DNA of 64,000 nucleotides from Bartonella schoenbuchensis R1 (GTDB taxonomy: Bacteria > Pseudomonadota > Alphaproteobacteria > Rhizobiales > Rhizobiaceae): contig NZ_CP019789.1 of NCBI RefSeq assembly GCF_002022685.1, positions 62,001 through 126,000 on the forward strand. The letters are read 5' to 3'. Both the position numbers and the translations under genes were made by a program. Shown here piece by piece: positions 32,345-36,647 of the stretch. Within the stretch, counting starts at the first letter, position 1. The number at the start of each line of letters is the position of its first letter. The notes under the pieces are model-generated. The model worked only from the letters and a program-made list of their open reading frames with translations. It searched no databases and was not told the origin of the DNA.

Positions 32345-33253
32345 ATGAAAGTAAAAACGTTTTTTACTGCATTTTTTTTAGGTTTAATCTTTTTAATTCC
32401 TAACTTAGCTTTGAGTGCTAACAAATTTAAAGCTGTTACAACGTTCACTATTATTGCTGATATGGCACGTAATGTAGCAGGTGATGTTGCTGATGTTGAA
32501 TCCATTACTAAACCAGGTGCTGAAATTCACGAATATCAGCCTACACCGCGCGATCTTATGCGTGCGCAAGGCGCCAATCTTATATTGTGGAATGGGTTAG
32601 AATTAGAGCTTTGGTTTGAAAAATTTTTTCAAAATATTAAAGATGTTCCAAGTGTTGTTGTTTCACAAGGTGTTGTACCCATCGCAATTGGCGAGGGGCC
32701 TTTTAGCGGTAAACCGAATCCTCACGCGTGGATGTCACCGACTTTGGCTTTAATTTACATTGATAATATTCGTGATGCCTTTGTAAAGTATGATCCTGAG
32801 CATGCTAACATTTATAAAGAAAATGCTGAAATCTATAAGCAGAAGATTCGTTTAAGTCTTGATCCAATCAAAGCTGAATTGGAAGCATTGCCAGAAGATA
32901 AGCGTTGGCTTGTGACCAGTGAAGGTGCGTTTAGTTATTTGGCTCGTGATTTTGGTCTAAAAGAGCTTTATTTATGGCCAATAAATGCTGATCAACAGGG
33001 AACACCACAGCAAGTTAAACATGTTATTGATATGGTTCGCAAATACCATATTCAAGTCATTTTTTCTGAAAGTACTATTTCTGATGCACCTGCCAAACAA
33101 GTTGCAAAAGAAACAGGCGCTCGATATGGCGGTGTTCTTTATGTTGATTCACTCAGTGAAAAAGGCGGGGAGGTTCCAACCTATATTGATTTGTTACGTG
33201 TTACGAGCGCGCGTATTGCCCAGGGGTTATCTGATGGGGTGAAAGGTCAATGA
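32345..33253 (+). CDS. sitA: Mn/Fe ABC transporter, periplasmic binding protein
   Basis: Cluster A-I metal-binding protein (TroA/SitA type), 302 residues. It begins with a signal peptide (hydrophobic [20 protein letters not shown]). Likely metal ligands in family order are His in EIHEYQPTP, His in [10 protein letters not shown], Glu in TSEGAFSY and Asp late in LYVDSL. Substrates in relatives are Mn2+ and Fe2+; Zn2+ cannot be excluded. It overlaps sitB by four bases and is first of four translationally coupled genes. The palindrome just upstream suggests metal control. Confidence 0.92.
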
Positions 33254-34080
33254 TTGAATCTGGAATATCTGTTCAAGATGTAACGGTGATTTATCGCAAT
33301 GGGCATATGGCTTTGCGCGAAGTAAGTTTTGAAAATCCAATTGGTTCGATTGCTGCATTGGTCGGGGTTAATGGATCAGGAAAGTCAACGTTATTTAAAG
33401 CCATTATGGGGTTTGTGCAGCCTTCAAAGGGGAGAATTCGCATTTTAGGTTTGCCGGTTAAGAAGGCTTTGAAACAAAATCTCATTGCTTATGTACCTCA
33501 GAGTGAAGATGTTGATTGGGATTTTCCTGTTCTTGTTGAAGACGTTGTATTAATGGGGCGGTACGGCCATATGAATTTTTTTCGCTATGCGCGCGCGCAA
33601 GATCGCGAAGCTGTTCGTTCTGCTTTAGAGCGTGTTGATATGTTAGCGTTTGCTAAACGCCAAATTGGGGAGCTTTCTGGTGGACAAAAAAAGCGTGTCT
33701 TCCTAGCACGTGCTTTAGCGCAGGAGGCAAAAGCTATTTTGTTAGATGAGCCATTTACGGGAGTTGATATTAAAACAGAAGATAAAATTATCGCTTTGTT
33801 GCAAGACCTTCGTAAAGAAGGTGCGATAATATTAGTTTCTACCCACAATTTAAGTTCTGTTTTTGAATTTTGTGATCGTACGGTTTTAATAAAAGGAACT
33901 GTTTTAGCTTCTGGATTGACACAAATGGTTTTCACGCAGAAAAATCTTGAACGAACTTTTGGTGGTGCATTACACCGCTATAATATTGATTTCCAAGGTG
34001 GAAAAAAAGATAATATTTTTGCAAATGGTGAAGAGCCTTTATTCTTTGACTACAATCAAGAGCGGAAGCACGTTTCATGA
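33250..34080 (+). CDS. sitB: Mn/Fe ABC transporter, ATP-binding protein
   Basis: Energises the importer from the cytoplasmic side. It has Walker [13 protein letters not shown]-loop region [12 protein letters not shown] signature LSGGQKKR, Walker [11 protein letters not shown] and the switch His in VSTHNL. 276 residues. It overlaps sitA and sitC by four bases each (ATGA type), indicating coupled translation. VDWDFPV after the Q-loop is common in Mn/Zn ATPases of this group. Confidence 0.95.
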
Positions 34081-34938: not shown

Positions 34939-35850
34939 ATGATAGATCAATTACTGCTCCCTTTTCAGCTTTCTTTTATGGTTAAGGGTATGACTATTAC
35001 CGTTATTCTTTCCATTCCAATGGCTATGCTTTCTTGTTTCCTTATTTTAAAAGGGTGGGCGCTTTTAGGAGATGCGATTTCTCACGCAGTTTTTCCTGGT
35101 GTGGTTATTGGTTATATGACAACACCGTGGGTGATAACATTTTTAGCCTCTTTGCCATTTGCTTGGTTTCACCATTTACATCCAGCCAATGTTACGATGA
35201 TTTTAATTGTTTTTGGTGCTTTCATTGCTGGTATGATTTGTGCCATCACGACAGGTTTTTTAGGGAGCAATAGCCGTATAAAACAAGATACGGTTATGGG
35301 TGTTGTTTTTTCGTCTATGTTTGGTTTGGGGCTTGTTCTAGCAACGGCAATTTATAGTAATTTGGATTTAAATCACATCTTATTCGGTAATCTTTTGGGT
35401 GTTAATTGGCTTGATATTACGCAGACAGCAATAATTTCTATTATCGTCACTTTAATTTTGGGAACGAAATGGCGTGATTTTATGCTGTATATTTTTGATT
35501 CGATTCAAGGGCGTGCAATAGGATTACAGATATCAGTGCTCCATTATACTCTATTAACAATGATTTCTCTCACGATTGTTGCGGCTTTGAAAGCAGTTGG
35601 GATTATTTTAGTTATTTCTTTGTTGATTGCACCAGGAGCAATTGCTTACCTTATTACTAAGCGGTTTTTCTCTATGCTTTTGATTGCTGTATTGGTTGCT
35701 GTTTTTTCTAGTTTTTTAGGAATTTATCTAAGCTTATTTATTGGTTCTGATTCTGCTTCTACGATTGTATTGATTTTGACACTAATTTTTACCGCTGTTT
35801 TTATATGGATTTTTGTTCAACAGGCTGCAACTCGGGAAACGCAAGTATAA
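34939..35850 (+). CDS. sitD: Mn/Fe ABC transporter, permease 2
   Basis: Second ABC-3 permease (303 residues). The family motif GDAISHAVFPGVVIGY and the late SLLIAPGAIAYLI loop are clear. Between VVIGYM and GAFIAGMICAITTGF lies a segment of about 25 residues (about 60-85; TTPWVITFLASLPFAW then HHLHPANV) where homologues usually have only a few residues before GAFIAG. The frame is intact through it. The segment is hydrophobic with two His and may be a lineage-specific insertion. It is the last gene of the operon, 8 bases after sitC. Confidence 0.9.
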   Translation: MIDQLLLPFQLSFMVKGMTITVILSIPMAMLSCFLILKGWALLGDAISHAVFPGVVIGYMTTPWVITFLASLPFAWFHHLHPANVTMILIVFGAFIAGMICAITTGFLGSNSRIKQDTVMGVVFSSMFGLGLVLATAIYSNLDLNHILFGNLLGVNWLDITQTAIISIIVTLILGTKWRDFMLYIFDSIQGRAIGLQISVLHYTLLTMISLTIVAALKAVGIILVISLLIAPGAIAYLITKRFFSMLLIAVLVAVFSSFLGIYLSLFIGSDSASTIVLILTLIFTAVFIWIFVQQAATRETQV

Positions 35851-35910
35851 TAGATTCTTTGCATAGCAGCCATGCATTTTTGTAGGTTGTTTTAAATTTT
35901 TCTTTTTATT

Positions 35911-36033
35911 AAATGGGGGGTGCTAGGTTATTTTCCTCCTAATGTCTAGCCGATGGATGCAGTATTTTCTCCTCCCAACACTGCATTCGTAATTGAGAGG
36001 CTGCATTGATTTATCGTGCAGCCTTTTTATTTT
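35911..36033 (+). ncRNA. Candidate anti-Shine-Dalgarno small RNA with own terminator
   Basis: Three hairpins follow one another. Hairpin 1: GCTAG (35922-35926) with CTAGC (35946-35950), loop containing CCTCCT (35935-35940). Hairpin 2: ATGGATGCAGT (35953-35963) with ACTGCATTCGT (35980-35990), 11 pairs including two G-T, loop containing CTCCTCCC (35969-35976). Hairpin 3: AGGCTGCA (35998-36005) with TGCAGCCT (36017-36024) and a T-rich tail, a clear Rho-independent terminator. Loops rich in CCUCC complement the ribosome-binding site. They resemble the CcsR/cuckoo RNAs and the alpha-r14 (NfeR1) family of alphaproteobacteria. No convincing promoter was seen, so it may be processed from the sit transcript or transcribed on its own. 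Confidence 0.65.
35998..36033 (+). terminator. Terminator of the sit operon / small RNA
   Basis: Perfect 8-bp GC-rich stem AGGCTGCA/TGCAGCCT, 11-base loop, followed by TTTTATTTTT. It is the strongest intrinsic terminator in this part of the window. Confidence 0.85.
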
Positions 36034-36233: not shown

Positions 36234-36647
36234 ATGATAGAAAAAGATTTTAAAATATCTCGCCCTTTACGAGTTTTCTATTCTATATTGGGTTGGGTGA
36301 TGATTGTATTAGGTCTGATCGGTGTGGTTTTACCTATTATGCCAACCGTACCTTTTTTATTAGTTGCTTCATGGTGTTTTGCCCGTTCATCACCACGGTT
36401 TCATTATTGGTTGCATAATCATCGAATTTTTGGTCTTCCCATTAAGCAATGGGAAGAAAAGAGAATCATCTCACCTTTTGTTAAAATTTTTGCTGTGGTA
36501 AGTATGATCGGTGGTTTTTTGTCATTTTTAATAATTGTACACCCTGCCTTATGGTTTGCTTTCTCCGCTGCAATTATTTTGTTGGTGATTGCTATTTATA
36601 TTGTGACACGCCCATCCTCATCTACCTCATCATCATTATCAAAATAA
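36234..36647 (+). CDS. DUF454 (YbaN) family inner-membrane protein
   Basis: A 137-residue protein with three to four predicted membrane helices (about 15-52 and 80-125). It carries the DUF454 pattern: LGLIGVVLPIMPTVPFLL, then WCFARSSPRFHYWL and PIKQWEEKR. Function is unknown. It is monocistronic, with no recognised partner and a low-complexity Ser-rich C-terminus. Confidence 0.85.
   Translation: MIEKDFKISRPLRVFYSILGWVMIVLGLIGVVLPIMPTVPFLLVASWCFARSSPRFHYWLHNHRIFGLPIKQWEEKRIISPFVKIFAVVSMIGGFLSFLIIVHPALWFAFSAAIILLVIAIYIVTRPSSSTSSSLSK

Follow-up and report, generated by a model that had tools for sequence, protein, structure and literature searches.

A predicted ar14-like small RNA with anti-Shine-Dalgarno loops downstream of sitD in Bartonella, and VtlR/LsrB as its candidate activator

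The window, the whole 64,000-nucleotide stretch of the Bartonella schoenbuchensis R1 genome that was analysed (C1:62001-126000), encodes the metal ABC transporter SitABCD, with sitA at 32345, sitB at 33250 and sitC at 34077 in the list of open reading frames (ORFs). SloB and AztB were the nearest NCBIfam models for the Sit permeases, with scores under the cut-offs of these models, while the Sit ATPase passed the cut-off of the NCBIfam manganese/iron ABC transporter model. The nearest named sit locus was that of Bartonella sp. WD12.1 (SitD 97% identical). The interval between sitD and the next gene downstream very probably contains a genuine small RNA (sRNA) gene (C1:97921-98033 in the genome), preceded by a palindromic box and a predicted promoter:

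34939..35850, + strand: sitD, the final gene of sitABCD, encoding a metal ABC transporter permease (ORF; context outside the sRNA)
35860..35876, - strand: palindromic box TGCATAGCAGCCATGCA, fitting the VtlR/LsrB consensus GCAT-N3-TG-N3-T
35886..35914, + strand: predicted sigma-70 promoter GTTGTT-N17-TTAAAT, seen by eye in the alignment
35921..36029, + strand: predicted ar14-like sRNA of about 109 nt (RF02344 match, model R2 and fold z score; the 5' end is a prediction)
35922..35950, + strand: stem-loop 1, arms 35922-35926 and 35946-35950, CCUCCU (35935-35940) open in the loop
35953..35990, + strand: stem-loop 2, arms 35953-35963 and 35980-35990 (11 pairs), CUCCUCCC (35969-35976) in the loop
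35995..36028, + strand: intrinsic terminator, GGCTGCA...TGCAGCC followed by TTTTT (35999-36028; sequence and fold)
36234..36647, + strand: DUF454 protein gene, downstream context (Pfam PF04304, E 5.2e-37)

The predicted fold of the sRNA depended on where the transcript begins. From 35921 to 36029 the folding energy was -36.0 kcal/mol (z -4.78), a value equalled by none of 200 shuffled sequences. A preliminary description of this DNA had reported two stem-loops that expose CCUCCU and CUCCUCCC, an 11-pair second stem and a terminator; all were recovered by direct reading of the sequence (the DNA letters at 35969-35976 are CTCCTCCC) and by the fold from 35921. The drawn fold holds from this predicted start and not from the start given with it, 35911, where the minimum-energy structure was a different one (z -3.12) and a GGGGGG run (35915-35920) paired with the first CCUCC. 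Accordingly, CCUCCU was unpaired at 7% when folding began at 35911, at 69% from 35916 and at 98-99% from 35919 or later. The G-run shows little conservation (mean column identity 48%) and falls in the spacer that separates the predicted -10 element from the predicted start; a start near 35921 (35919-35923) is therefore preferred, which makes the drawn structure the likelier fold. The terminator was not listed by a generic promoter/terminator scan, probably owing to the loop range of 3-8 bases used by that scan.

The RNA aligned with the whole of the Rfam ar14 model at a score below the family threshold. A covariance search, as the preliminary description had proposed, matched ar14 (RF02344) at 35916-36030 on the correct strand and over model positions 1-123 of 123, with 37.3 bits (E 1e-5) against a gathering score of 58.8; a scan of the window at gathering level returned a tRNA alone and no ar14. 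PMC10746234 defines ar14/NfeR1 RNAs by three hairpins, each with an unpaired CCUCCUCCC, and describes LsrB as the activator of NfeR1, whose anti-Shine-Dalgarno (anti-SD) loops mediate repression. NfeR1 of Sinorhizobium meliloti, the founder of ar14, shares with the window RNA the succession of two stem-loops and a terminator, the pyrimidine anti-SD loops, and a box of the LsrB type ahead of a sigma-70 promoter (predicted for the window RNA) whose elements are 17 bases apart. The window RNA differs in having two such loops instead of three, with CCUCCU rather than CCUCCUCCC in loop 1, CUCCUCCC in loop 2 and no third anti-SD motif in the terminator loop.

Full ar14 RNAs occupied the same place in other members of the genus. 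In eight bee-type or basal Bartonella genomes (G003, G006, G007, G008, G012, G014, G018 and G021), the copies downstream of sitD scored 72.7-87 bits, over the ar14 cut-off, and carried three anti-SD loops, one of them within the terminator. Bartonella apis, B. apihabitans and B. choladocola are bee dwellers. Since these same-place copies are complete three-loop ar14 RNAs, the window RNA is, by synteny, an ar14 descendant whose third loop was lost; since two defining features of ar14 fail here (the score and the three motifs), it is a variant of the family and not a member. The preliminary assignment thus stands as far as a structured, conserved anti-SD sRNA related to ar14/NfeR1 is concerned and not as to membership. 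Among 61 genomes (the source genome, 36 of its genus and 24 of its order), ar14 was found at E <= 0.01 in 35, nine of them above the cut-off with stricter filters, and a DNA comparison across this set gave a match in 32 genomes, all of one genus.

Other RNA families resembled the element less closely. The SmelA075 and SmelA099 models (PMC3927594) share CCUCCUCCC-type hairpins in multi-hairpin modules, of three and four hairpins, and no Bartonella locus, box or regulator is given for them in the accessible part of that paper; Bartonellaceae are listed there among the families covered by a seven-model set including both. Because these models and the B. bacilliformis sRNA BbsR14 (PMC7717549) precede the present analysis, it is not new per se that Bartonella contains the family. 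A match to the CcsR/cuckoo RNAs had also been suggested. These RNAs (RSs0680a-d in Rhodobacter) have anti-SD loops in tandem hairpins as well, and originate on the 3' side of a DUF1127 gene (CcaF1). They fit less well, as the window RNA has sitD upstream, the single DUF1127 match of the genome lies at C1:1596572-1596679, and cuckoo-like copies in bee-type Bartonella do follow DUF1127 genes. No CcsR-like copy was seen by eye beside the DUF1127 gene of the source genome. The bee-type copies appeared as second ar14 matches (L148-L154; 46.7-56.3 bits), immediately downstream of a DUF1127-like frame; their loops read CUUCC/CUCCC, and in G014 and G021 a VtlR-type box stood ahead of their DUF1127 gene.

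Conservation across Bartonella was strong in loop 1 and in the terminator. Model R2 was built from an alignment (A1) of 41 Bartonella copies, including two identical rows from one assembly (L080 and L082) and the window itself, which scored 128.6 bits as one of the training rows. R2 detected the element in all 61 Bartonella genomes of its own set; many of these had supplied training copies, so the telling matches are those in bee-type and basal genomes that were not used for training (e.g., G003, G006, G012 and G021), at E 1e-9 to 1e-12. Column identity among the 41 copies was 97% in loop 1 and 96% in the terminator, compared with 69% in the bases just past the terminator, and the alignment indicates that the element is conserved beyond chance. 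CCTCCT was kept in loop 1 of 39/41 copies (exceptions: L099, CCTCCC; L071, CATCCT). Loop 2 did not follow the expectation that both CCTCC loops would be conserved: CCTCC was present in 13/41 copies only, a C-run of 4-11 in 27/41, and neither in one (the second B. bacilliformis copy). This C-run was 8 long in one B. tribocorum strain and 7 in another, and its length also varied among B. vinsonii subspecies. Loop 1 was predicted to be more than 80% unpaired in 40/41 copies, and the pyrimidine tract of loop 2 likewise in 39/41.

The stems were retained mostly through sequence conservation. Helix cells were paired at 95.2% overall (97.2% in stem-loop 1 and 95.7% in stem-loop 2), as opposed to 29.5-48.5% when the helices were slid by 1-3 columns. 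Among 500 shuffles, the observed values were reached by 4 for paired cells, 3 for double-change cells and 12 for the covariation score, while the five double-change pairs were reached by 34 and the further pair types by 122. Base-pair covariation is therefore modest, and it was rejected as the main proof of the structure, the signal being too weak.

Within the source genome, the search for further copies returned none. R2 gave two weak matches besides the locus: one (E 0.15) was the 3' end of an autotransporter-like gene with its terminator (C1:1378553-1378663), not an anti-SD RNA, and the other (E 4.8) was the opposite strand of the element itself. The word TTCTCCTCCC occurred at three places in the genome, of which the other two look coding by eye. 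The autotransporter-like gene (L159) is followed by a strong GGCAGCAC/GTGCTGCC terminator.

The box upstream of the predicted promoter accompanied the sRNA in nearly all copies. It reads GCATGGCTGCTATGC on the - strand, ahead of the -35 element, and corresponds to GCAT-N3-TG-N3-T, given as the LsrB consensus in PMC8844928. The strict consensus was found in 39/41 copies (missing in L088 and L098a) versus 0.7% of shuffled upstream regions, and a box also stood ahead of the main copy in all eight bee-type or basal genomes. Column identity was 93% in the box versus 74% for the bases between the sitD stop and the box, and the 17-base palindrome with no mismatch occurred once in the whole genome (0.04 expected at an assumed 38% GC). 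The box is of the AbcR1 type and unlike the form described for the NfeR1 promoter, TGCA-N6-GCAT (PMC10746234). The promoter hexamers matched the alphaproteobacterial sigma-70 type, CTTGAC-N17-CTATAT, at 3/6 and 4/6 positions with the same spacing and were not reported by the generic scan; weak hexamers at the right spacing may be what is expected of an activated promoter. Judged on sequence alone, the locus is a candidate for an LsrB-dependent sigma-70 promoter of the ar14 kind, with 17-base spacing and an AbcR1-type box.

Similar palindromes were distributed ahead of a second class of genes. With at most one mismatch, the palindrome marked the ar14 promoter in 11 of 12 genomes; the exception was B. 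bacilliformis, with a more degenerate version. The same search gave 27 other places by hand count, and the reversed pattern gave 6 strand hits versus 48. Fifteen of the 27 places, picked partly by mutual resemblance, were examined; eight lay just upstream of a DUF1127 gene (L150, L154 and L162 to L167), at 91-100 bases from the start codon in the six measured, and seven had no DUF1127 gene (six according to a motif script that missed L162, one by eye). In the source genome, the single DUF1127 gene showed by eye a degenerate version of the box only. DUF1127 genes and an sRNA are known outputs of VtlR in Brucella (PMC12595884).

A candidate regulator for this box, VtlR/LsrB, appears to be encoded in every Bartonella genome searched. 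One LysR-type helix-turn-helix protein was detected in the source genome, 301 aa long and directly beside trxB (named from its sequence), the length being that of B. melitensis VtlR (PMC12595884) and the trxB-vtlR/lsrB order being conserved (PMC7486931, PMC11975290). It aligned over its full length with the Agrobacterium tumefaciens LsrB structure 9hh1 (E 2.6e-136), and kept the C144/C273 redox pair but not C236/C244. By neighbour, length and redox pair, it has the features of a VtlR/LsrB orthologue. VtlR/LsrB was present in all 61 Bartonella genomes of the set also searched with R2, with no internal stops and at least 76% identity, and 48 of the 61 had no second VtlR relative at E <= 1e-20. 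No Rfam family was found beside vtlR (locus L147) at E <= 0.1. The Bartonella arrangement shares with the VtlR/LsrB regulon elsewhere (AbcR sRNAs, vrsA and DUF1127 genes) the box consensus, the trxB-vtlR order, and a boxed sRNA along with boxed DUF1127 genes; it differs in that the boxed sRNA is ar14-like. From box and regulator, the switch of the sRNA looks like VtlR/LsrB rather than the neighbouring metal importer. Literature searches, whose coverage excluded most subscription papers, returned nothing linking Bartonella with VtlR and nothing naming Bartonella together with DUF1127; in the accessible parts, PMC5596092 mentions Bartonella and NfeR1 in unrelated passages, and PMC8726615 is a Salmonella paper naming Bartonella and LsrB.

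BbsR14 is a probable orthologue of this RNA at the sitD-adjacent locus of B. bacilliformis, as judged from its published description and assuming that the strain corresponds to Ver097. As described in PMC7717549, BbsR14 is an sRNA from B. bacilliformis RNA-seq, with two stem-loops carrying TTCCTCCTAA, and is significantly higher at pH 8 than at pH 6; no ar14 or regulator assignment is given in the accessible part. B. bacilliformis Ver097 (L098) has two tandem copies after sitD, and BbsR14 is provisionally placed at this locus because the only TTCCTCCTAA word pair of the genome with 15-45 bases between the words lies in one of them. Like the window RNA, BbsR14 has two stem-loops with anti-SD loops; its second loop is UUCCUCCUAA instead of CUCCUCCC, and it belongs to a tandem pair where the window has a single copy. 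Box and sRNA were duplicated as a unit (L098:4981-5360), and loop 2 of the second copy has decayed. The ar14 model had no match at E <= 0.1 on these two copies. Two adjacent sRNA matches were also found in one further 1.4 Mb genome (G074:C1:1360261-1360647).

With its structure, its conservation, its box-promoter architecture and the co-occurrence of sRNA with regulator in all Bartonella genomes searched, the element is likely to be a stand-alone, trans-acting anti-SD sRNA of ar14/NfeR1 descent, activated by VtlR/LsrB and blocking ribosome entry. In the proposed mechanism, VtlR/LsrB would respond to the redox state, bind the palindrome at 35860-35876 and recruit RNA polymerase to the weak sigma-70 promoter. 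In the source organism, an RNA of about 109 nt would then be transcribed up to the terminator, and its two pyrimidine loops, loop 1 foremost, would pair with the Shine-Dalgarno sequences of selected mRNAs, so that ribosome entry is blocked and these targets are repressed.

Candidate targets gave hints only. GGAGGA-N2-11-ATG had 136 hits in the source genome (89+47), and the reversed pattern 30+27. Many of the hits came from one repeat array (C1:336979-350432) where GGAGGAG...ATG returns every ~400 bases; this array, which inflates Shine-Dalgarno searches, is probably a surface-protein gene with repeats. Of 34 GGAGGA places inspected, five (L204, L205, L221, L223 and L231; farthest ATG used) began a reading frame that stayed open as far as the fetched sequence went. 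Pfam gave a weak, sub-cut-off porin for L204, a phage terminase for L221, a family-3 solute-binding protein for L223 and a class-V aminotransferase for L220, where the start is probably internal. The porin-like and solute-binding proteins among the candidates would be a hint in line with the preference of NfeR1 for ABC transporters (PMC10746234).

The sRNA was adjacent to sitD throughout Bartonella and absent from sit loci elsewhere. Sit loci were compared among the best 80 of 454, comprising 48 from Bartonella and 32 others, a few of the latter cut by contig ends. In this best 80 of 454, the sRNA followed sitD in 48/48 named Bartonella loci, at 70-81 bases from the sitD stop on the same strand in 39 and at 929-933 bases in the remaining 9, where a glycosyltransferase-like ORF of 257-293 aa intervenes (glycosyltransferase family 25 by Pfam in the bee-type locus L101, 4923-5747, the one in which the family was confirmed). 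At the 32 non-Bartonella loci of the same best 80, ar14 was absent at gathering level, which the window RNA would itself miss, and R2 had no match at E <= 1. As an ORF intervenes in 9/48 loci and the sRNA is absent at non-Bartonella sit loci, the closeness of sitD and sRNA in the lineage of the window, where the glycosyltransferase gene is missing, is best read as the loss of a gene between them. A RyhB match over the Rfam cut-off was observed ~3 kb from sitD in Oceanisphaera pacifica (L118:832-893), a case of an iron-linked sRNA close to this importer in a bacterium of another class.

The constancy of this neighbourhood (48/48 Bartonella loci among the best 80 of 454) favours the proposal made in the preliminary description, a regulator tying metal status to translation through SitABCD. 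This proposal is nevertheless highly improbable and was rejected, as a conserved promoter region of its own, with the box of a non-metal regulator, precedes the sRNA, a gene intervenes in 9/48 loci, and the element is missing beside 32/32 sit loci outside the genus (best 80 of 454). Moreover, the loops paired weakly with the start regions of sitA to sitD (-4.5 to -8.9 kcal/mol; the best ORF of the window reached -14.3), the strongest of them, sitB, ranking ninth of 50 crude window ORFs. The same synteny bears on whether the element is simply the 3' end of the sitABCD mRNA, as a terminator region or possibly a processed 3'-UTR RNA following metal-regulated sit transcription. The short same-strand gap in 39/48 loci (best 80 of 454) is compatible with this, and so is the lack of a + strand terminator between sitD and the sRNA in the generic scan, which also missed the terminator of the sRNA itself. 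The intervening ORF, the box that accompanies the RNA and not sitD, the joint duplication of box and RNA in B. bacilliformis and the absence of the element from the 32 other sit loci (best 80 of 454) make a 3'-end origin decidedly unlikely.

A related doubt concerns the palindrome at 35860-35876, which together with TTTTT might be a weak sitABCD terminator instead of a regulator box. In 7/8 copies tried it was predicted to form a hairpin of -3.3 to -7.9 kcal/mol, with -0.4 in L088, and the T-run of five was invariant across 41 copies. However, the hairpin of the window is weak (-3.3), the middle CAG is nearly invariant despite being the loop of that hairpin, the bee-type box is ~0.9 kb from sitD with no T-run behind it, and similar boxes stand ahead of DUF1127 genes; a terminator in place of a box is thus unlikely, and a double use as box and terminator is possible in the lineage of the window. 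As for the mode of action, the loops might mimic the 3' end of 16S rRNA and compete for Shine-Dalgarno sequences generally, with no chosen targets. Loop 1, the most conserved segment of the RNA, reads CCUCCUAA, which resembles the ribosomal anti-SD sequence. 'Indiscriminate translational repression' has been proposed for BbsR14 (PMC7717549), but NfeR1 acts on particular mRNAs (PMC10746234) and the GGAGGA pattern gave only 89+47 hits in the genome, many of them within the repeat array, next to 30+27 for its reverse, so that a global brake appears rather unlikely.

The preferred reading, a VtlR/LsrB-activated sRNA acting on selected mRNAs, places the hitherto unassigned BbsR14-type sRNA of Bartonella in a family and connects it with a promoter region and a specific candidate regulator. 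Tentatively, the LysR layer of most Bartonella may have come down to one redox-sensing VtlR/LsrB, whose main outputs would be a single anti-SD sRNA and a single DUF1127 gene, amounting to a minimal switch from redox state to translation. In this scenario, the lineage of the window would have shed the third loop and kept loop 1 as the working seed, while many relatives would have turned loop 2 into a C-run (4-11) that could be a slippage-tuned contingency site. The presence of regulator and sRNA in 61/61 Bartonella genomes suggests that the VtlR/LsrB circuit, with its known roles in Brucella virulence and rhizobial symbiosis, persists in Bartonella in a reduced form, with translation start sites as its likely output.
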